From a virus: a DNA stretch of 26,547 nt. The DNA lies in IMG/VR virus record IMGVR_UViG_3300035670_001097, positions 1 to 26,547 of that record; one strand, written 5' to 3'. The position numbers and the translations under genes are program-made. The notes beneath the pieces were generated by a model, which did not search any database, had not been told where the DNA came from, and worked only from the letters and a program-made list of their open reading frames with translations. Shown one piece after another: positions 2,908 through 26,547 of this stretch (position 1 is the first letter of the stretch; each line of letters starts with the position of its first letter).

Positions 2908-2935
2908 CTCCGTTCTCTCCGTTAACTCCTGTTCA
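2908..2935. repeat. Nonamer array a (TCCGTT type)
   Basis: Units TCCGTTCTC, TCCGTTAAC and a degenerate TCCTGTTCA. Read on the minus strand, the last unit becomes the GGAGG RBS of the HTH gene starting at 2901. Confidence 0.6.
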
Positions 2936-3811
2936 AAAGCACCCACCACCCACCACCTCCAGATCCTCCGGGTCCTCCCACTCGCACCCGGAAACCGCCC
3001 ACATCCGCAAGCAGTCAATCGGGTCCTTTGCCGCGCCCTTCCCGCCATCGAGCCCCGTCCAATTCTCCAGGCTGTAAATCAGATTCGCGCAGTCCTCGCA
3101 AATGAACAGCCTGGGCTTGTTGAAAAAATCCACCGGCTTACCCGGATCGTAGGCCAGCCGGTCCGTGATGATCGTCACCCCCTCGCCGCCGGCATTAACC
3201 GACGGATCATACAGCACCCGAAACTCCGCCTTGGCTGGTTCGAACACCAACCCGATTTCAAGAAACTCAAGGATCAACGTCGTCGGCATGTCCGCGTTCT
3301 CCTTTTTCGCGCTGGCATAGCGCGAATCGATAAATCGCGTCCGCACGTTTTCCACGCTCCCAAGCGACTCACTGAGGCGAATATACCAAGCCTTTTCCCC
3401 CTCGTCCTCCTGCCGGGGCTGCTGCGTAATCGCCTTCCACTGTTCCAGCCGTGCCATCTCGAACTTAATCTGAGCCAGCCCGAACCCGAACGACTGCTGA
3501 GCCGGCCCGGGCCGCCCGTCCTTCTTCTTCCCGTCGGGCAGCGTCCAGGGCCCAGGCACATCCTGCCCGGGAATCTCATAATTTCCGGGCCATTCCCGGT
3601 ACACCCAGCTCGCCCCCGGCGTTTCCCGCACCCAAATGAAAAACGGATTTCGACCCCCGCACGGATCCATGAACAAATTATTCATACCCCGCGCCGGAAT
3701 CTGCGCCTTCTTGATTACATGCACATCCCGGTTGAACAGCGGAAACCGTTGCGCAATGGCCTTATTTGCCACCCCATACCACCGTTCCAAAACATAATCC
3801 GCCGATCCCAT
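2933..3811 (-). CDS. Terminase large subunit, nuclease (RNase H-like) part, as a separate gene
   Basis: 292 residues. It matches the C-terminal nuclease half of large terminases: DPCGGRNPFFIWV with catalytic Asp49 on the first strand, a following REWP, then RFIDSRYAS with Asp162, and near the C-terminus KDPIDCLRM with Asp263/Asp266. These acids would bind the two metal ions that cut concatemeric DNA. The start is firm: AAGGAGG lies four bases before the ATG, and an in-frame TAA lies just upstream, so it cannot be continuous with the ATPase gene. The ATPase gene ends 46 bases upstream in a different frame. The two products must act together during packaging. In most phages they are one polypeptide. 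Confidence 0.8.
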   Translation of the reverse strand: MGSADYVLERWYGVANKAIAQRFPLFNRDVHVIKKAQIPARGMNNLFMDPCGGRNPFFIWVRETPGASWVYREWPGNYEIPGQDVPGPWTLPDGKKKDGRPGPAQQSFGFGLAQIKFEMARLEQWKAITQQPRQEDEGEKAWYIRLSESLGSVENVRTRFIDSRYASAKKENADMPTTLILEFLEIGLVFEPAKAEFRVLYDPSVNAGGEGVTIITDRLAYDPGKPVDFFNKPRLFICEDCANLIYSLENWTGLDGGKGAAKDPIDCLRMWAVSGCEWEDPEDLEVVGGGCF

Positions 3812-3835
3812 TATTCCTCCTTAGCACTCCAAAAA

Positions 3836-3860
3836 CCCATACATCCCATACGTCCCATCA
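3836..3860. repeat. Nonamer array b (TCCCAT type), between the terminase halves
   Basis: Units CCCATACAT, CCCATACGT, CCCATCA. It overlaps the stop codon of the ATPase gene and lies 24 bases upstream of the nuclease gene start. Confidence 0.6.
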
Positions 3861-4856
3861 CGCCACCTTCTGCAACACACTGGCCGGATTCCCGAACGGA
3901 TTATCCGACGTATGGAAAAAGATCACCGCCCGGTCATGCACCAACCGCCCGCCCAACACCCGGGGCGCGCACCGCATCACCCTGGGGACCTTCTTAAACT
4001 TCCGACCCGCCGAAACCACCGGTTGACCCGTTTCCCCTTCCAGCCACTTATCGCAGTCCTCCGGCACCAGGGCCAAATCATGCAGCGCCTCTTTACCGTC
4101 CACCGGCACCAGGAACGCGGTTGAGAACCGGACCGGCACCGCCCCATCCTGGAACAGCTTCACCGTTTGCGAATAGCCCAGGATCGGCGTAAACGTAATG
4201 ATGATTTTCCCCTCCCGGGTAGCGGTACGAAATTCGAGCGTCTCCACCCAATCCGGCGGCACCAGTTCATCCGGCCAGGCATAATCAATCTCGCCGCCCT
4301 CAATCGTCGTCCGGTCCATCTCGTAATTCCAGAAGGAGCAATCCGAAAGATTCGGCAGCGTGAACTTATCCCCTGAAAAACCCGTTTGCGCCTTGTAGTG
4401 GATATACGCCGTTTCGCTCATGATTTTTTTATGCTGCAGCGCGGCCGGCAGGTACTTGTGGACAATCGGCATCTGGTAATCCACCGACATTGCTCGCTTC
4501 GAGTGAAACGCCCAGGCGCGCCGGCCTGGAGCCCGCGCCAATATCTGAACCAGCCGCTTCGCTGCATACTCCGACTTCGAGCCGCGGTTGCCCCCATTGA
4601 TCAGCAACGTGGAAACAGGCGCCTCAAACCCCAAAAGCTGACGCATCGCCTTCCCATACTCCGGATCTCCCCACCCCAGCAAAGCATCCGCCACCTTCCA
4701 TATTTTTGGCTCCCACCCATGATTGAGAGGGTCCATCCTTTCAAGCCGGATAATCTCCTCCCGTTGCTCCACCAACTCCTTCCACCGATCAAACCCAAGC
4801 GCCCGCGCTTGCCCCGCGGAAATCATCGGCAAAATAGGGTGTGGCGTCTGCTTCAA
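3858..4856 (-). CDS. Terminase large subunit, ATPase part, as a separate gene
   Basis: 332 residues, close to the length of the ATPase half alone. The Walker A-like loop is NGGNRGSKS (residues 87-95, Lys94). The Walker B/catalytic motif is IDYAWPDE (residues 190-197, Glu197). The coupling motif is TFTPILGYS (about 221-229). The protein ends just after HTSDNPFGNP, where single-chain terminases continue into the nuclease domain. Start codon is TTG at 4854-4856, chosen because GGAG lies seven to eight bases upstream and no ATG is nearby; it follows the preceding stop after one base. The packaging motor uses ATP to drive DNA through the portal encoded downstream. The nuclease domain is the separate gene at 2933-3811. 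Confidence 0.82.
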   Translation of the reverse strand: MKQTPHPILPMISAGQARALGFDRWKELVEQREEIIRLERMDPLNHGWEPKIWKVADALLGWGDPEYGKAMRQLLGFEAPVSTLLINGGNRGSKSEYAAKRLVQILARAPGRRAWAFHSKRAMSVDYQMPIVHKYLPAALQHKKIMSETAYIHYKAQTGFSGDKFTLPNLSDCSFWNYEMDRTTIEGGEIDYAWPDELVPPDWVETLEFRTATREGKIIITFTPILGYSQTVKLFQDGAVPVRFSTAFLVPVDGKEALHDLALVPEDCDKWLEGETGQPVVSAGRKFKKVPRVMRCAPRVLGGRLVHDRAVIFFHTSDNPFGNPASVLQKVA

Positions 4857-4857
4857 T

Positions 4858-5745
4858 TCAAAACTCCGTTATGTCCGTTTCGTCCGATACGGCCGTAGGC
4901 GAACAACGTTTTTCATCTGGAAATTCCCGAATCAAAAGGTCATGCGGAATAGGTCTAACCTTGTCCACCTGCTTGAAGAAAAACGGCGTTCCTGCTGTTT
5001 TGCACTCGTCGCGAAGATTACGAGCCCATTGCAAATTAAACGGCCTCTTGCGCGGACCTGACTCCCCGCCGCATATTACCCAGTCCACGCAATGAAGTTT
5101 TCCCACGATCTCGCGGAAGCGTTCGTTTACTTCATCTAACAACACATTTTCAACGACGCTGGTAGGGAACCTAACAGTCCTGAGTGTAATAGGCTCAAGC
5201 ATTGGCTCGACTGACAGGAAACGAATGGCCGCAGGAATCTTTAACAGTGCATGAATGCGCTCCTCGGCCCGGCGTTGGTCCTCAACGGTAGTTCCGATCC
5301 ATACGTTTAGAGGTGGTAAACCATCGTACCAAGCGCCGACAAAGTTTTTAAGCCGTTCGCTTATAGTAACGTCCCACACATCGCCGATTCTTCCGCTCCA
5401 CAACTTTGGACGCTTCGTAAGCAACAACCATTTCAAATCTGGCGTTTCCATAATGTGGTAAAGAAGATCCTCCAGCCATGCCAACGGCACTTCTGGATCG
5501 AGCCAATCGGAAAGAGACGCGCAAAACACCTTGCTTCCTGGGTTTGTCCTGTTCAGTTTCAGAACATTTTCCCAGTTCGCGTCCGACGTGCGTACCCGCT
5601 TTTCCCCGGCTCCCCATTTGACTCTTTTCCATCGCGTATCCATCAACGCCTCGGCGTAGCAGTTCTTACACCCAGGCGAAACGTGCGTACACCCGATCCA
5701 AGGATTAAACGTGTGGTCGCACCATTCTATTTTACTGTTTTCCAT
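4858..5745 (-). CDS. Phage Gp37/Gp68-family (DUF5131) radical-SAM-like protein
   Basis: 295 residues. The N-terminus IEWCDHTFNPWIGCTHVSPG, followed by CKNCYAE, is the family hallmark. Cys19, Cys26 and Cys29 (C-x6-C-x2-C) would hold a 4Fe-4S cluster as in radical-SAM enzymes. Further family-like blocks are LLLTKRP (about 107-113), IGTTVEDQ, RFLSVEPML and ICGGESGP. The reaction and substrate of this family are not known to me. The gene is visibly more A/T-rich than its neighbours and sits between replication and packaging genes, which suggests an acquired accessory gene (moron). Its last codons (SDETDITEF) are encoded by a nonamer array that also supplies the RBS of the terminase ATPase gene. 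Upstream is only a weak RBS (GGAAG). Confidence 0.8.
   Translation of the reverse strand: MENSKIEWCDHTFNPWIGCTHVSPGCKNCYAEALMDTRWKRVKWGAGEKRVRTSDANWENVLKLNRTNPGSKVFCASLSDWLDPEVPLAWLEDLLYHIMETPDLKWLLLTKRPKLWSGRIGDVWDVTISERLKNFVGAWYDGLPPLNVWIGTTVEDQRRAEERIHALLKIPAAIRFLSVEPMLEPITLRTVRFPTSVVENVLLDEVNERFREIVGKLHCVDWVICGGESGPRKRPFNLQWARNLRDECKTAGTPFFFKQVDKVRPIPHDLLIREFPDEKRCSPTAVSDETDITEF
4865..4899. repeat. Nonamer array c (TCCGTT type)
   Basis: Units TCCGTTATG, TCCGTTTCG, TCCGATACG and a degenerate GCCGTAGG. It is inside the 3' end of the DUF5131 gene and ends eight bases from the TTG start of the terminase ATPase gene. Confidence 0.65.
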
Positions 5746-9507: not shown

Positions 9508-9663
9508 GAGAACCTCCTTTGTATGAAATTTTCTGAGAGCAGACCCGATAGGTGGAGCGACGGCCCGCCGCGCACAAGACCCCCCCCGCCCCCCCTCGCG
9601 CGCGTCCGCTCCGGTCCGCGCGCCGCGCTCCAGGGTCCGAAATCAACGCTGTCTTGGGCCGCG

Positions 9664-9704
9664 GATTGCGTCCCGATTGCGTCCCGATTGCGTCCCGATT
9701 GCGT
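9664..9704. repeat. 11-bp tandem repeat GATTGCGTCCC
   Basis: Three full copies (9664-9674, 9675-9685, 9686-9696) and eight bases of a fourth. The 11-bp period puts each copy on the same face of the DNA helix, as in iterons or clustered operators. Confidence 0.8.
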
Positions 9705-9740
9705 ATTGACGAAATGCCCAGCGATAACCCCGGCAACGGT

Positions 9741-19300: not shown

Positions 19301-20985
19301 TCCCATACCTGGATAATCCCCGCCGCGCCCACGTCATACTCCCCGCCAAGCTTTTGCCCTTCCACAACCCCCGTTCGTGGGTCGGCCCCTCGCTTAAAGT
19401 TTGGCACATCCTTGGAAAGTTTCAAGCTGTCCGTATCCAGCCAGCGAATATTCTCCGCCCCAGGCGGCGCCATCCTCACCCACGCATCCGCATGGGCCTG
19501 GTAGCTCTCCACAAACCCCTCCGGCAACCCCTCCAGGTCCGCGGGTCCGGCCTCCGTTACGTCCGTTAAGTCCGCTTCCCCCACTGGCACCCCCTGCACC
19601 GGCCCTTCCTCAATCTTACCCGTATCCGGCAACTGATCTTCCAAAGGTTGGAAATCCGGCTCCTCCTTCTTTCCAACCTTTGGAACCCGGCCGCGCTCGC
19701 GCATCCCGGACGCCTGCAGCATCGCCCCGCCGGCCGTTTCCGCCGCGCCGCTCCCCACCTCCGCCAGCCCTTCCGCGAAAACCGCCACCGGGTTAAACCG
19801 CTCCCCGGCCGCCACCTGCCCGGCCGCCTCCCCGGCCATCCCCATTCCGGCCTGCTTCCCCGCCTCCTTGCCGGCAGCCGCCAGCTTGTTGAACAACCCG
19901 ATTGCCGGCTTTTCTACCACCTTCGCCCCGATCAACACCGACGCCGCGTCGAACATTCCCACCGTCAACCCGCGCCGCCAGGCCAGGCTTCGCGCCTTGC
20001 TCATGATCTTCGGATCCGTAAATCCGCGCTGTACGTCCTTGGGGTCGTCCAGATTCACCCCGGCTTTTTCCAGGCTTTCCAGCAGCTTCCCGGCATACTC
20101 CACCGAAAGCGACGCCCCGCCGGTCCCCGCCGCCAGGCCGGCCAGTGCCCCCGCCGAGGTCCCCACCAGCGGGATAACCGACCCCGCGCCCGCACCCGCC
20201 GCCACCCCCGCCGGTACGTTCTGCACCACCGCCGGCAACAGGTTGCCGAGGCTTTCCGCAATCAACTCCGAGGTCACCGCCAGCGGATTCTTAGCAAACG
20301 CCTTGGCCGCCTGGGCAAAATCGTCCGTCTGAAACGCCGCATACTCCGGGCTGGTCGGAACATCGCCCGACTCTTTCCGCAACTCCACCAGGGCCCAAGC
20401 TGCCTCCTGATTGGCCGGGTTATATTCCAATTGCTGCGAGGCAATCATCTGCTGCCCCTGATTGGCCCCCCGCCTCCAGGCCGCCTTGATCTGGTCAGCG
20501 CTTGGTATCTGGTCGTCAAGCGCCTCGTTGGCCCCAAGGAACGCCCGCATGATCCCTTCCGAAAGATTCACCCTGCCCAGCACCTCCCCCACCGTAGGCG
20601 CCTGCCACTCCGGGACCTGCAAATTCCCCTGGGCGAACACCCGTTGAAACCCGGGCGGATCCGGAACCGGGTCATATTTCAACGTCTGGTACTTCGAGAA
20701 ATCAGGAAAAGCCAGCTCGTCCTCCACCTCCTGCTCCAGCTTCGCCGCCGCGGCCGGCACGGGAAACGCATCCGGGTACTTCTTCCGCACCCGCCGGAAA
20801 AATTCCTGCCGGGTCGCCTCCTGCTTCTCCGGCTCCATTTCCTCAAACGCCTGCAGGTTGCCCGGGGAATTGGCCTGCCACGTATCGAACAGCCGCCCCA
20901 TGGCCGCATTGAGCGCGTCGGGATTCTGCGCCACCTTCTGCCAGCGCGGATCGCCCAGCACCTCGCTGATGTCGAACCCGGTCAC
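13336..20985 (-). CDS. Giant polyvalent virion protein (ParB-like, RadC/JAB, zincin, LPD-like C-terminus)
   Basis: 2549 residues. From the N-terminus: a helical region; Gly/Ala-rich hydrophobic stretches (about 245-295 and 365-430); a ParB-like domain with SGRHRRDLA (His575) and a following helical part; linkers with Q-x-D/S-L-F motifs (724-982); a RadC/JAB domain with HNHPSGDP (His1121, His1123, Asp1127); a second, degenerate JAB-like segment (about 1188-1275); a zinc-protease HEIGH (1491-1495); and a long helical C-terminus with WDKWTQIGQISERTFKIAG, resembling LPD-type domains of phage polyvalent proteins. Such proteins are packaged and ejected with the DNA to protect or process it in the host. 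The start is GTG, overlapping the previous stop (GTGA), with AAGGG upstream. Confidence 0.85.
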   Translation of the reverse strand: MTGFDISEVLGDPRWQKVAQNPDALNAAMGRLFDTWQANSPGNLQAFEEMEPEKQEATRQEFFRRVRKKYPDAFPVPAAAAKLEQEVEDELAFPDFSKYQTLKYDPVPDPPGFQRVFAQGNLQVPEWQAPTVGEVLGRVNLSEGIMRAFLGANEALDDQIPSADQIKAAWRRGANQGQQMIASQQLEYNPANQEAAWALVELRKESGDVPTSPEYAAFQTDDFAQAAKAFAKNPLAVTSELIAESLGNLLPAVVQNVPAGVAAGAGAGSVIPLVGTSAGALAGLAAGTGGASLSVEYAGKLLESLEKAGVNLDDPKDVQRGFTDPKIMSKARSLAWRRGLTVGMFDAASVLIGAKVVEKPAIGLFNKLAAAGKEAGKQAGMGMAGEAAGQVAAGERFNPVAVFAEGLAEVGSGAAETAGGAMLQASGMRERGRVPKVGKKEEPDFQPLEDQLPDTGKIEEGPVQGVPVGEADLTDVTEAGPADLEGLPEGFVESYQAHADAWVRMAPPGAENIRWLDTDSLKLSKDVPNFKRGADPRTGVVEGQKLGGEYDVGAAGIIQVWERKNGDLEVISGRHRRDLAVRTGYPKMLAEVFREEDGFTAEDAAVMDAEKNILDGKGDLDDYVQFFKGSNISEPEARDKGLLARALGRKSFAIASYLSPDSFALWQSGKLNTDAAAEIAEAAPLDTDLQREAVYMLGRDSKLSPKHFIQSRKAFPTAKKAGAQGDLFGTSDQALNDSIARANAAQKFVEEMKNKIRAAIGALKRPEAAAEMGVNFKDEKETLAEIDRLRAEIADWEHWGSDPAKVALASARAGLIDTPSPPSAAAPFMGNHEKTTPGGAPGANLLKEQQDLFGMAAGPSPFRRLLQDVAAKPMPTASTAVQVLESREMQRQAVNLLEDLAAGRMTEDEAQAKWTRIGAAVARRDTMRAKAAAARGAGRQTDLFAAPESQGSLFEPVAAFAAKNGVKNPARAGQALADTLAQLELPGLHEPYRAPAPPPMTAEEANAAAIANPRNARALREAFRMSQGVRWVLRDLVDGRIPAFNVAGQVVRDAADVAAMMIPARSPDFESSKVVAVRDGRVVACELVSMGELNATLMSSDMVMRVMNKIEGPVDGVWISHNHPSGDPAPSSEDILLTKKMKQELDRSGIKLLGHVVTNGENFVEITPEIDYNAGEISNKSLAPWEAVESSKKWIVRTPENARPIIGALRQADPGYGHVMVLDTKNRVNALERIPIDIPQNEVGPLLAKIVSRNSGVGMVIEIPGKAIQYTGLVQQIKRLAESSPHAKILDVLTLDGANGEVWSAREQGVIAFHEGRMETVREAPGGWVFEKPVERWDPRPDLGTPAPRVPKPGDDPNPAPYAMELPELLELARAINGRETPEVRKFLRNAYGHFRHIPGQLDSGKIRLRADIFQLIMPDELEKMQTQANKDALAQASIEFGEGFDPENMTKEQADFVGGVAQRRFEFFWDTTREKRMQETTRQAARTLSHEIGHMADFNPEGIIRGRGNILARIATFQQYFRRWLGETPAKQGNVFTKKELQKLRRDAEKMVGPRPPKDEEADLAAWQDAVRKQYAELRDEQEEMRGLLNRDKVRQELEDLIAWWRGIEPGGQVPEYFLQGHEMYAEAFSVILTNPAAMATRAPQFWNAFNAWLDRKPLVRAQWQRIQNELKTGAAHKNRRLRLLEGFQKSDADWMDLKFTPSFWKSLAGGDTSAAKAKAEMAADMLIYGFDRTLGPIYRRLPKLPEERRGQVMKALADFRYKAAQSELVMAELNQRVGGVLLEHGLDMANLGEYMFYQHILHNRADVANPGATDPKAAADGLESMLESLGRQRFDALERARLEFRAIYEKYVLGTLRDFEILTPELQAVLEERVYYATFAVVRGDVSAKEGTIEFELARMYGDAAGSQIYRQVGTLQDIMNPASALAAKALSLINMAHREHAKRLSAEALLEIKDPMVARAPNVWDGTRQIPKVEQSENVQTLTYLHKGKLHGVYVPRSIYAGLQHGDTIENRMMAGMAKYLNRPIKGVMTEINYGFWPVAFVRDMFAFARKMPKAALFGRRGFWKYFARSWAASRSGIHGRPNEIAKDALMRNDLISVANPQGLSDVDTVYERLLNNWHQNPVLWRRSAVSPGARLLRLWDKWTQIGQISERTFKIAGMLYLDEHFSNLPEWKKQNMVHNLAGSPDFLDKPAFNPVIELFSAMYYNPWKQSVRSEVKAFKEGWASYIWHQLKYAFLPKAIQFALFTGGLRMILGKWLSDKMEEAGRYIGDYDQTNYVNTPLGWQDMKSGKFSWIWEETPAGPKKLVYHRMPLDEGQRMMGGAFWLMLNRLSDTGRGAQGIGSYAGGQVPTQNPISKVAVDWYAYKLLDRNPYDRFRGELLLRDDVFAARDLSKDADGAMARYAWNSLGGGIVTRLQADNWYMRDAKAPPMEKFLNLPIVSNSIGRWIKISDRGLYDSVKGPIMDARAQGAAGRLEVQKALAEPDATRGAALQGAVKKYPAAAPYLMNQASKGGGYMPPDVRALMNAQSTAEKVAIEEAMEKAKAGR
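17090..17720 (-). other. A/T-rich island within the giant gene covering the two JAB-like segments
   Basis: By eye this stretch is much richer in A and T than the flanking coding sequence and uses different third positions. It covers the catalytic end of the RadC/JAB domain and the degenerate copy, which suggests later acquisition by domain exchange. Confidence 0.5.
19553..19579. repeat. Nonamer array e inside the giant gene
   Basis: TCCGTTACG, TCCGTTAAG, TCCGCTTCC, encoding Glu-Ala-Asp-Leu-Thr-Asp-Val-Thr-Glu in a linker. It is the same unit as the arrays in front of genes, without a start codon nearby. Confidence 0.6.
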
Positions 20986-23509: not shown

Positions 23510-24306
23510 GTCTTGATACATACCAACACCGACTTATTAGCCGGAATCACTTCCTCGCCCGAGTGAATGTCCCCGCGATCCGGCCGACACCGCAAATCGC
23601 CAAGGATCACCGTACCGCTTTCCGCGGACCGGGCCGGGTAGGTCCCGCCGGTCCCCGCCGCCCGGAGCTGAATATCGTGCTTGTGCTCCCGGTAGTAATC
23701 CATCTGGTAGGTCCCCACCTTATCCCCGGTTTCCCCGTCGCCCCGGTCCGTGCGCGCCGTAACGTGCTTGTCATTCCCCGCCCCCGCGTCCCAGCCCCGC
23801 CGGAACATCCCCCGGTAATCCGGCAGCGTGAAATTTGCCGCCGTCTCGCCGTAAATGCAGGCGGACCCCCCGTCGCACAGAAACGCGTACAGGTCCGGGT
23901 AATCCGCCTTGGCCACGGAAGCCCCGTTGCAATGCAGAAACCCGCTCGGCACCGTACTGCGCGGAAACTCAATGATCGCCCCCGTCGGCACGAACTCAAT
24001 CGAGCTGGAAAGGTGCTGCGGCAGAACCGCCCCATCCTGGATATGCTGGCTCCCCACCGAATCGTCCGCCAGTTTCGACGACGTTACCGACCCATCGGCA
24101 AGCCCAAGCTGGGCCTCGATCGCCGCGTCCAGCTTATCCGCCGTAATCGACCCATCCGCCAGTTCCCGGGCCGTGACCGCCCCGGCCTGGATCCGGAGAA
24201 TCGCCTCCGCGGGCATCTTATTCAGCTTCGCATAGGTCAGGGTTTCCCCCGAGTCATCCTCGTTGAACAGATACCCCGGAGTAATATCAACCGCGCCGCT
24301 GGACAT
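23506..24306 (-). CDS. Tail fibre protein with collar domain
   Basis: 266 residues from the ATG at 24304-24306 with AAAGGA seven bases upstream (an in-frame GTG at 24312 overlaps that region). The N-terminal half has repeats of the type DGSIT..KL (LADGSITADKL, LADGSVTSSKL, IQDGAVLPQHL) that form trimeric beta structure. GAIIEFPRSTVPSGFLHCNG begins a phage tail collar domain, followed by FTLPDYRGMFRRGWDAG and a C-terminal EVIPANKSVLVCIKT, all typical of collar-type fibres. It is the probable host-recognition protein. Confidence 0.88.
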   Translation of the reverse strand: MSSGAVDITPGYLFNEDDSGETLTYAKLNKMPAEAILRIQAGAVTARELADGSITADKLDAAIEAQLGLADGSVTSSKLADDSVGSQHIQDGAVLPQHLSSSIEFVPTGAIIEFPRSTVPSGFLHCNGASVAKADYPDLYAFLCDGGSACIYGETAANFTLPDYRGMFRRGWDAGAGNDKHVTARTDRGDGETGDKVGTYQMDYYREHKHDIQLRAAGTGGTYPARSAESGTVILGDLRCRPDRGDIHSGEEVIPANKSVLVCIKT

Positions 24307-24331
24307 GATCACATCCTTTCAAAAAAAATCA

Positions 24332-24892
24332 TCAAGTAATCGGTAACGCACTCCAAAGCACAAACACATCCACCTCGCCCGCGGTGGCCGCGTCCAGGTC
24401 GTCATCGGTGGACACCGCCGCCACCCTCACGCTGGTAACCGACCCGAAATTCTCCAGCCCGTCCGGGGAAGTCCCCTCATTGCCCGAGTGCTGGAACACC
24501 GTATCCCCCACCGTCTGGAACGCATCGAACGCCCCGGCGTAGGCTGTCAGATCCCCCGCCTTCCCCACGCTCACCGTGTAGGCCGAAATCGATCCCCCGG
24601 CAAACGCCGTACCGTGCTTGATCACCACCCGGTGTATTACACCCCCCGCCGGCAGCTCGAAAAGCTGAATATCGTTGGTGGTTGCCGCCGCCGCCAGGTC
24701 CTCAAAGTCCACCGTGTACTTCCGCCACCGGGGCACCGCCTGGGTAGCCTGGATTTTGCTGTTGGCGATCTCCAGCGAAGTCCCGTCCACCAGGTACTCC
24801 GTGGGGTTCATGGTCTGGATGAGCTGGTAAATCAGCTCCCGGGTAACATTCTTTTCCGGGAGGTCCACCGATCTAAGCATAGTCTGAGGCAT
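24332..24892 (-). CDS. Beta-rich tail-associated structural protein
   Basis: 186 residues. The N-terminal part (ELIYQLIQTMNPTEYLVDG) is helical. The rest is beta-rich and ends GEVDVFVLWSALPIT, a style common in phage tail or fibre-adaptor proteins. It lies between tail nozzle and tail fibre, which supports a tail role. Its start is preceded by a nonamer array and no better RBS. The operator copy at 24631-24643 is inside the gene and encodes Gly-Val-Ile-His. No named family recognised. Confidence 0.6.
   Translation of the reverse strand: MPQTMLRSVDLPEKNVTRELIYQLIQTMNPTEYLVDGTSLEIANSKIQATQAVPRWRKYTVDFEDLAAAATTNDIQLFELPAGGVIHRVVIKHGTAFAGGSISAYTVSVGKAGDLTAYAGAFDAFQTVGDTVFQHSGNEGTSPDGLENFGSVTSVRVAAVSTDDDLDAATAGEVDVFVLWSALPIT
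24631..24643. promoter_or_regulatory. Palindromic operator copy 7, within a late gene
   Basis: GGTGTATTACACC, exact core, inside the beta-rich tail gene. No good -35 element lies in front of it, so it would act as a roadblock-type site, or it is a relic. Confidence 0.6.
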
Positions 24893-24894
24893 AA

Positions 24895-24927
24895 TCCACG
24901 TCCGTTTCGTCCGTTAAGTCCGTTCTC
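24895..24927. repeat. Nonamer array i (TCCGTT type)
   Basis: TCCACG, TCCGTTTCG, TCCGTTAAG, TCCGTTCTC, filling the whole gap between the tail-nozzle stop and the 24892 start. Confidence 0.65.
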
Positions 24928-26547
24928 ACACCTTCACCCCATACCCCCGCTTCCCCGCCTTCGCCTCCATCTCCACCGAATGCACATTGCATCGCCCCTG
25001 CGCGTTCTCGATCCGGGCCTGGGCATACTGCCCCCGCGCCTTGATCTTCCACCGCAAATCCGCCCGCTGGTGCAGGTGCAGGTTGACCCCGCTCCCCACG
25101 TACAGCTCCGGATTCCCCCCGTCCAGCTCCACCGAATAATCCTGCCGGTGAGGCCTCCCGTGATCGTCGTTGACATTGCTGGGGTCATAATCCGTCTCGC
25201 TCCAGGTGTAATACACCGTCCGACCCCGTGTCGTCAACGTTTCCAGCGCCTTGATTTCAGCGATCCCGTCCGTCTGCACCGCCACCGAAAACGTCGGCCG
25301 CCAGCTCGCCATGTTCACCTTCAGGGTTTGTGCATCCTTCGAATCCAGCACCCCCATGGCATACCCCCGGGTCAGCAGCATGTCCGCAATCTCGTACCGG
25401 TCGCTCCACAGCCGGTCCTCATACCCCGTATTCATCATCATCACCGCCCCCGCCGCCCGGTCATACGGTCGCGAGGCCCCGTTCACCAGAAACAGCCGGT
25501 ACTGTCCGCTGTACTCCGCCGTCAGAAAATGCCGCACGTCCAGAAAGTCCGGCGCCTCCCACTTCCCGCTCCAGGCCCGGTTGAGAAAATCGAAAACCAG
25601 AATCGTATTGTTGTAATTCGCTTCCCCCGTCGGCACCGCCAAATACAGCTTGTTTGCGTGCGACGCCATCACCGCCGCGTCCACCCGGTCCCACTTGATC
25701 GACCGGAACAAAGGCTCCAGGGGCGCGCTTGCCGGCTCCGCCACCGCCTGCAGCTTATTATCGATCGCCTGGGAAATCGCATAAATCCCGTGATCGCTGA
25801 GGAACCAGACATCCTTCCCCACCCCCGCCACCGCGTCCCGGGCCACCAGCCCATAGGTCGGGGTCAGCTTCCGCGCGTTCACCGCCGACAAATCCCCATA
25901 CACACCCGCCAGCGCCCAAATGCTTTGATCCTTGAAAACCAGAATCGTCGTCTCGTCCCACGCCCACAGCCTCACGATCCGGTCATTATCCCCGGAATTG
26001 ATCGTAAACCGGCTCGTCGCCGCGTTGAACCGGGTATAGTCCATAATATCGCTCACCACGATTTCATCCCGCCCGCTTACCACCCACACCCGGTTTTTGA
26101 AAAACATCGCCTCCGAGGCATTGGGAATCTGCAACGTCCCGTCCCCGTATGAATTATCATCGTCCGTATTCCGGTTAGCGGTCTGAGAAATAAACTCCCA
26201 TTCCCCCACCCCGTCCTGGAAGTCCAGCGCGGGGTCCCACACCAACGGCTCTTTGTCCGTGCCCCGGAACATCAACACCCGGTCAAAACACTGAATCATC
26301 CGCACAGGCTCCTCGATGATCTCCCCCACCGGCAGATTGATCAACGTCGGGCTCTGATGCTGGGCCACCAGGTAAACCGCCGTACGCACCGCAAACAGCA
26401 TCATCTCATTCCCGTGCGGATCCGAAAACACCCCCGCCCCAAAAATCTCCCCAAAGCCAATCTCCTTATCGAACGAAAACCCGCCCGCGGAATACCCCTC
26501 CTGATCCACCGCCACCGTCGCCCCGCCCCCCCCCCGCCAGATAGAAA
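24926..26547 (-). CDS. Tail nozzle / stabilisation protein (beta-propeller), 5' end outside the window
   Basis: At least 540 residues; the frame stays open to the right edge through a glycine run encoded by ten C bases (26526-26535), so the GTG at 26515 is probably not the start. Repeated blade-like segments (AVYLVAQHQSPTLINL, QCFDRVLMFRGTDKEPLVWD, KDVWFLSDHGIYAIS, HANKLYLAVPTGEANYNNTI) fit the propeller fold of the T7 gp12-like tail nozzle. WDETTILVFKDQSIWALAG is typical of the family. It forms the tube end of the short tail. An operator copy with a promoter-like sequence lies inside it. Confidence 0.75.
   Translation of the reverse strand, partial: SIWRGGGGATVAVDQEGYSAGGFSFDKEIGFGEIFGAGVFSDPHGNEMMLFAVRTAVYLVAQHQSPTLINLPVGEIIEEPVRMIQCFDRVLMFRGTDKEPLVWDPALDFQDGVGEWEFISQTANRNTDDDNSYGDGTLQIPNASEAMFFKNRVWVVSGRDEIVVSDIMDYTRFNAATSRFTINSGDNDRIVRLWAWDETTILVFKDQSIWALAGVYGDLSAVNARKLTPTYGLVARDAVAGVGKDVWFLSDHGIYAISQAIDNKLQAVAEPASAPLEPLFRSIKWDRVDAAVMASHANKLYLAVPTGEANYNNTILVFDFLNRAWSGKWEAPDFLDVRHFLTAEYSGQYRLFLVNGASRPYDRAAGAVMMMNTGYEDRLWSDRYEIADMLLTRGYAMGVLDSKDAQTLKVNMASWRPTFSVAVQTDGIAEIKALETLTTRGRTVYYTWSETDYDPSNVNDDHGRPHRQDYSVELDGGNPELYVGSGVNLHLHQRADLRWKIKARGQYAQARIENAQGRCNVHSVEMEAKAGKRGYGVKV
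25205..25217. promoter_or_regulatory. Palindromic operator copy 8, within the tail-nozzle gene
   Basis: GGTGTAATACACC, exact core, encoding Thr-Val-Tyr-Tyr-Thr on the coding strand. Confidence 0.65.
25210..25237 (-). promoter_or_regulatory. Possible internal late promoter overlapped by operator 8
   Basis: Minus strand TTGACG (25232-25237), 16-base spacer, TGTATT (25210-25215), the same arrangement as at 10741-10768. It would drive the downstream tail genes. Confidence 0.4.

Follow-up and report, generated by a model that had tools for sequence, protein, structure and literature searches.

A phage large terminase divided into separate ATPase and nuclease genes, with a nonamer array at the domain hinge

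In most Arthrobacter cluster AY phages, the ATPase and nuclease of the large terminase (TerL) are encoded by consecutive genes, as in genes 2 and 3 of BillyTP and genes 2 and 3 of BlueShadow, which together make up a two-gene large terminase (PMC11920828, PMC12820723). Cluster AY phages form plaques, indicating that a split arrangement is viable. In the comparison record for BillyTP the two coding sequences overlap by 17 nt (600-1679 and 1663-2259), so a frameshift product is conceivable there. When T4 gp17 was split at its linker, ATPase and nuclease activities were kept, but translocation was lost (PMC3012670). TAACTGA-type short tandem arrays, described from marine Beggiatoaceae, Cyanobacteria, and Bacteroidetes, lie mostly just upstream of start codons, with some placed over the stop codons of upstream genes, and the author suggested that such an insertion might be fixed if it divided one protein into two that both function (MacGregor 2015, PMC4679880). 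The locus described here lies in a 26,547-nt stretch of viral DNA (IMG/VR record IMGVR_UViG_3300035670_001097), the whole of which is referred to as the window. It resembles the cluster AY arrangement in that the ATPase and nuclease genes are consecutive and placed between the small terminase and the portal side of the packaging module. The likeness to BillyTP is one of gene layout alone, with the two halves in the window parted by a 49-nt segment that is closed in all three frames and holds a nonamer array. Split TerLs are therefore already known from cluster AY, and the window presents a new variant with an inserted array segment.

The two TerL domains are not carried on one chain in the window; an intact ATPase and an intact nuclease are instead encoded by consecutive, separate genes (Table 1). 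None of the three frames stays open from one gene to the other, and the nuclease frame is shifted by 1 relative to that of the ATPase. The locus is therefore filed as a split TerL and not as a single-chain TerL. Each gene has its own ribosome-binding site: a GGAG motif lies 7 nt upstream of the TTG start of the ATPase gene, and few genes of the window have an upstream motif as strong as the AAGGAGG ahead of the nuclease ATG. On the coding strand, the junction reads GCG TGA TGGGACGTATGGGATGTATGGGTTTTTGGAGTGCTAAGGAGGAATA ATG. The first bases of the stops that close the three frames across it lie at 3860 (TGA 3860-3858, ending the ATPase frame), 3823 (TAA 3823-3821, in the nuclease frame and ahead of its ATG), and 3813 (TAA 3813-3811, in the third frame). 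The first-pass annotation, which was made from the sequence alone, had placed both ORFs at the coordinates given here and had reported the different frames, a ribosome-binding site for each part, and an in-frame stop before the nuclease ATG; all of its statements about the sequence proved correct.

Table 1. Features of the split terminase locus and its flanking junctions (window coordinates)
Feature	Position	Strand	Details	Basis
TerL ATPase gene	3858..4856	minus	332 aa, TTG start	
TerL nuclease gene	2933..3811	minus	292 aa, ATG start	
Net 49-nt insertion relative to fused relatives	3812..3860	minus	closed in 3 frames	hinge alignment
Degenerate nonamer array	3836..3860	minus	ATGGGACGT ATGGGATGT ATGGG	Tandem Repeats Finder, period-9 scan
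Third-frame mini-ORF	3811..3858	minus	MGRMGCMGFWSAKEE; 15 codons	computed
Shine-Dalgarno AAGGAGG	3816..3822	minus	4 nt before nuclease ATG	sequence
Nonamer array at DUF5131/ATPase junction	4865..4891	minus	CGGACGAAA CGGACATAA CGGAG	period-9 scan
Short nonamer array	2908..2929	minus	AACGGAGAG AACGGAGG	Tandem Repeats Finder

Neither half matched a Pfam family, and the PHROGs database returned at most one weak, unnamed match for them, so they were identified from relatives, catalytic motifs, and structure. Relatives of the ATPase as well as of the nuclease occur in phage C75C1 and in viral contigs. In the ATPase, the Walker A motif is GGNRGSKS, with K94 as its lysine, and the Walker B/catalytic pair is D196-E197; K94 and D196-E197 are invariant in an alignment of 28 sequences (the window and 27 relatives). 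In the window ATPase, serine takes the place of the glycine that precedes the Walker A lysine, and since the same serine occurs in several relatives, this represents variation within the family. The RNase H-type catalytic acids of the nuclease, D49, D162, and D266, are conserved as well, with D49 and D162 invariant in the nuclease alignments and D266 invariant or nearly so. AlphaFold2 models were obtained with mean pLDDT values of 94 for the ATPase and 84 for the nuclease. Foldseek searches with the ATPase model gave as top matches the TerL ATPase structures of P74-26, HK97, T4 gp17, D6E, and Sf6, and those with the nuclease model gave D6E TerL and the nuclease domain of P22 TerL; the TM-scores were modest, and the matches are thus to be read at the level of fold. 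Together, these data confirm that the first ORF encodes a terminase-type ATPase and the second an RNase H-type terminase nuclease, and both halves, judged by their sequences, still look functional.

Relatives were collected by searching viral contigs and genomes of Lentisphaerota, Verrucomicrobia, and Opitutia with the nuclease alone as the query, so that split relatives would have been found too. In every one of the 81 distinct relative TerLs holding both halves, the two are encoded by a single ORF, as in C75C1 (CDS 24034-25689), and the TerL of L125, a distant relative found later, is also fused. Between the GNP and YG motifs, the hinge of the closest relatives reads GNPASVWRKVKGQPVAKVRERWYG (L101) and GNPSGVLEKIAGKSQAFIRERFYG (L103), 24 residues in each case, and that of the window reads GNPASVLQKVA, followed by the segment and then MGSADYVLERWYG, giving 11 + 13 = 24 residues. 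The number of hinge residues equals that of the closest relatives and none is missing, and thus the break is a net insertion of 49 nt, comprising stops in three frames, the nonamer array, and a new ATG preceded by a strong Shine-Dalgarno sequence. That the break falls at the natural hinge between the domains, as had been claimed from the sequence, was borne out by the structural model, in which nuclease residues 1-18 form the linker, or hinge, and are the low-confidence part, and by the relatives, which read straight through this position. The first-pass annotation had named close relatives with a fused gene, together with reads showing an error, as the evidence that would speak against its reading. 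Fused relatives do exist, and all relatives are fused, but none exceeds about 56% identity. This dates the split to the window lineage and does not refute it; the dating is coarse, and relatives at this distance give no before-and-after view of the insertion. By these comparisons, the split is particular to the lineage of the window phage.

Based on these data, it is likely that a single-chain TerL was split by the ~49-nt hinge insertion and that a two-protein motor resulted. The ancestral protein would have consisted of an N-terminal ATPase, a hinge, and a C-terminal RNase H-type nuclease, and in the window lineage the net insertion would have entered the hinge codons, bringing with it a degenerate nonamer array of the type that recurs at gene junctions across the genome. 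As a result, the ATPase would end at the TGA, the three frames would be closed, and the far edge of the segment would provide the strong Shine-Dalgarno sequence and the ATG of the nuclease. Two proteins would then be made, with the nuclease produced by its own initiation, possibly aided by reinitiation via the third-frame mini-ORF. This mini-ORF shares TGATG with the ATPase stop and TAATG with the nuclease start, and termination-reinitiation coupling of the two genes is therefore possible. Both proteins would presumably assemble at the portal, held by the ATPase-nuclease interface in place of the covalent hinge. The split in the window is notable because T4 gp17, with the same two domains and the same linker break point, loses translocation when cut there, with the T4 split being artificial and that of the window natural. 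The loss of translocation by divided gp17 has been taken to mean that force transmission requires a covalent hinge. A motor naturally divided at this point, with no frame for a fused product, would allow a direct test of that requirement.

The nonamer array that had been noted exactly at the junction is real and begins at the ATPase stop codon (TGATG), but it is one of a genome-wide set and not unique to this position. Eight period-9 arrays were observed in the window compared to 0.1 expected under an order-2 Markov model; a GGA-type core, read on the coding strand, is common to seven of the eight. Six of these seven GGA-type arrays are no more than 40 bp away from a gene end (binomial p about 8e-6, with genes as called in this analysis), and one lies in frame within a 2549-aa ORF. 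The array ahead of the ATPase gene supplies the GGAG upstream of its TTG, and the one behind the nuclease gene sits between the nuclease stop and the ATG of the next gene (2901). In L125, many nonamer and heptamer arrays lie directly before start codons, including that of TerL. The short-unit arrays of the window (6/7) and of L125 are thus placed mostly directly upstream of starts, like the TAACTGA arrays, which share with those of the window degenerate short units and, in some instances, a position on stop codons. The arrays described here differ in being GGAC-type nonamers in the window and heptamers in relatives, in being found in phage, and in offering a concrete candidate for gene splitting.

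The relatives carry arrays too, with unit lengths between 7 and 10 nt. Within their fused TerLs, heptamer arrays far exceeded the number expected from codon shuffling (16 observed versus 0.4 expected), whereas nonamer arrays were not above expectation (4 versus 4.1). The arrays in fused TerLs lie near ATPase residues 63-67 and 265-280, nuclease residues 126-144, and the C-terminus, all of them in frame, and these sites correspond to variable surface loops and tails. Individual examples of heptamer or octamer arrays in frame in intact fused TerLs are L026 4434-4496, L030 4393-4434, L095 4043-4093, and L105 4405-4449, which fall at a few recurring loop positions.

Given that short arrays are common near starts and occur in frame in fused TerLs, it is plausible that an array caused the split. 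The first-pass annotation had raised this idea; the in-frame arrays of the relatives' fused TerLs support it, and the hinges of the unsplit TerLs, none of which contained an array, do not. We tentatively extend the favored reading to propose that a spreading short tandem array acted as a portable gene boundary, entering the hinge and giving a stop, a ribosome-binding site, and a start, so that two unlinked working proteins were formed; this is possible, but less likely than the split itself. The locus is in this respect a concrete candidate for short tandem arrays splitting one protein gene into two working genes. The data fit both an array that caused the split and one that was acquired afterwards at the newly formed gene junction. 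In the latter case, which we consider rather unlikely, a small mutation would first have made a TGATG overlap at the hinge, with the array expanding between stop and start afterwards. Consistent with such an order, ATGGGA is present at both edges of the segment (in the first array unit and at the nuclease start codon), and arrays abut other start codons, both in the window and in L125, where no gene was split. However, the in-frame arrays in fused TerLs indicate that arrays enter coding sequence, and a prior split is thus unneeded.

Some phage genes are split by homing elements, and the window resembles these in that a phage gene is found in two parts, but the insertion carries no intron or homing endonuclease. 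We also considered that the terminase might belong to a decaying prophage, with the insertion disabling it and the nuclease ORF being a remnant. An ORF that by its sequence reads as an integrase (12177-11080) makes a prophage state possible, and the nuclease has one of the longest terminal branches (0.815, rank 75 of 78), compared to 0.427 (rank 61) for the ATPase. Since only the nuclease branch is long, constraint on this half may be somewhat relaxed. Measured from root to tip, however, both halves lie near the family median, so neither looks decayed. The ORFs remain open over 332 and 292 codons and keep all catalytic residues, a strong Shine-Dalgarno sequence is present, and the portal (725 aa) and the 2549-aa ORF are intact too. 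We therefore regard decay as improbable.

T4 gene 60 contains a 50-nt translational bypass, and the segment at the terminase junction is of similar size. If the ribosome bypassed it in the same programmed manner, the two ORFs would be joined and one chain would still be made, with the GCG before the TGA and the GCG that forms the fourth nuclease codon as possible take-off and landing sites. Folding compared to shuffles revealed no RNA structure at the junction beyond chance and no stable hairpin in the segment (z = 0.26, -0.62, and -0.72), in which it differs from gene 60. Moreover, the strong Shine-Dalgarno sequence and ATG are more simply explained by initiation, and by our rough estimate a nearby matching GCG is likely to arise by chance in GC-rich sequence, making bypassing highly improbable.

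An assembly or sequencing error is no more credible: the record is a 26,547-base virus contig of metagenomic origin, classed as linear, and tandem repeats are error-prone, but miscounting 9-nt units preserves the frame, the TGA lies ahead of the array and is independent of unit number, and several independent errors that also made a Shine-Dalgarno sequence and an ATG would be needed. The fused gene is not restored by any single frameshift, readthrough, or miscounted repeat unit, and readthrough of the TGA continues in the wrong frame for the nuclease. Closure of all three frames arises by chance in 41% of shuffles for a segment of this size (3812-3860) and is thus unremarkable alone; its weight lies in the fact that no single error undoes it. 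The earlier contention that this is no sequencing frameshift, founded on the differing frames and separate ribosome-binding sites and here joined by the three closed frames, is upheld, and an error behind the split appears very unlikely from the sequence.

The distribution of the arrays beyond the window and the relatives' TerLs was also surveyed. The phage host is of the Verrucomicrobia/Lentisphaerota type. The exact nonamer pattern of the window does not occur in the four host genomes from which relatives came, and of 145 genomes of those hosts' phylum 3 contain it; the arrays consequently give no host assignment. Similar nonamers occur in a few bacterial genomes of the same phylum. In the literature searched, whose coverage is incomplete, no report of nonamer arrays from phages of Lentisphaerota or Verrucomicrobia was found. 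A search with the junction pattern AAGGAGGAATAATGGGATC returned one viral contig, L022, without terminase similarity, and patterns beginning TGATGGGAC occurred in ten viral contigs that followed no common gene-end rule and included no terminase relatives. L125 is a viral contig that was recovered only via the nonamer pattern, and it has portal, TerL, and DnaB homologues.

Several further repeats were observed in the window. Directly upstream of the terminase lies a gene for a DUF5131 protein (4858-5745; Pfam E 4.6e-72, PHROG 2045), the last codons of which are formed by a nonamer array. At 19550-19577, an array of the same family runs in frame through a low-complexity, linker-like stretch of the 2549-aa ORF (ADLTDVTEA). 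As at the terminase junction, an array beginning CGTGATGGGAC (23509-23477) is located at the stop of a tail-collar-like gene, and it runs on into a short ORF whose sequence, KTVVWVLAWAVVLLLDVLLWVL, resembles a membrane helix and may represent a holin or a protein of that sort. Finally, a perfect 11-nt tandem repeat, GATTGCGTCCC, is present in 3.7 copies at 9659-9710 and is unrelated to the GGA-type nonamers.
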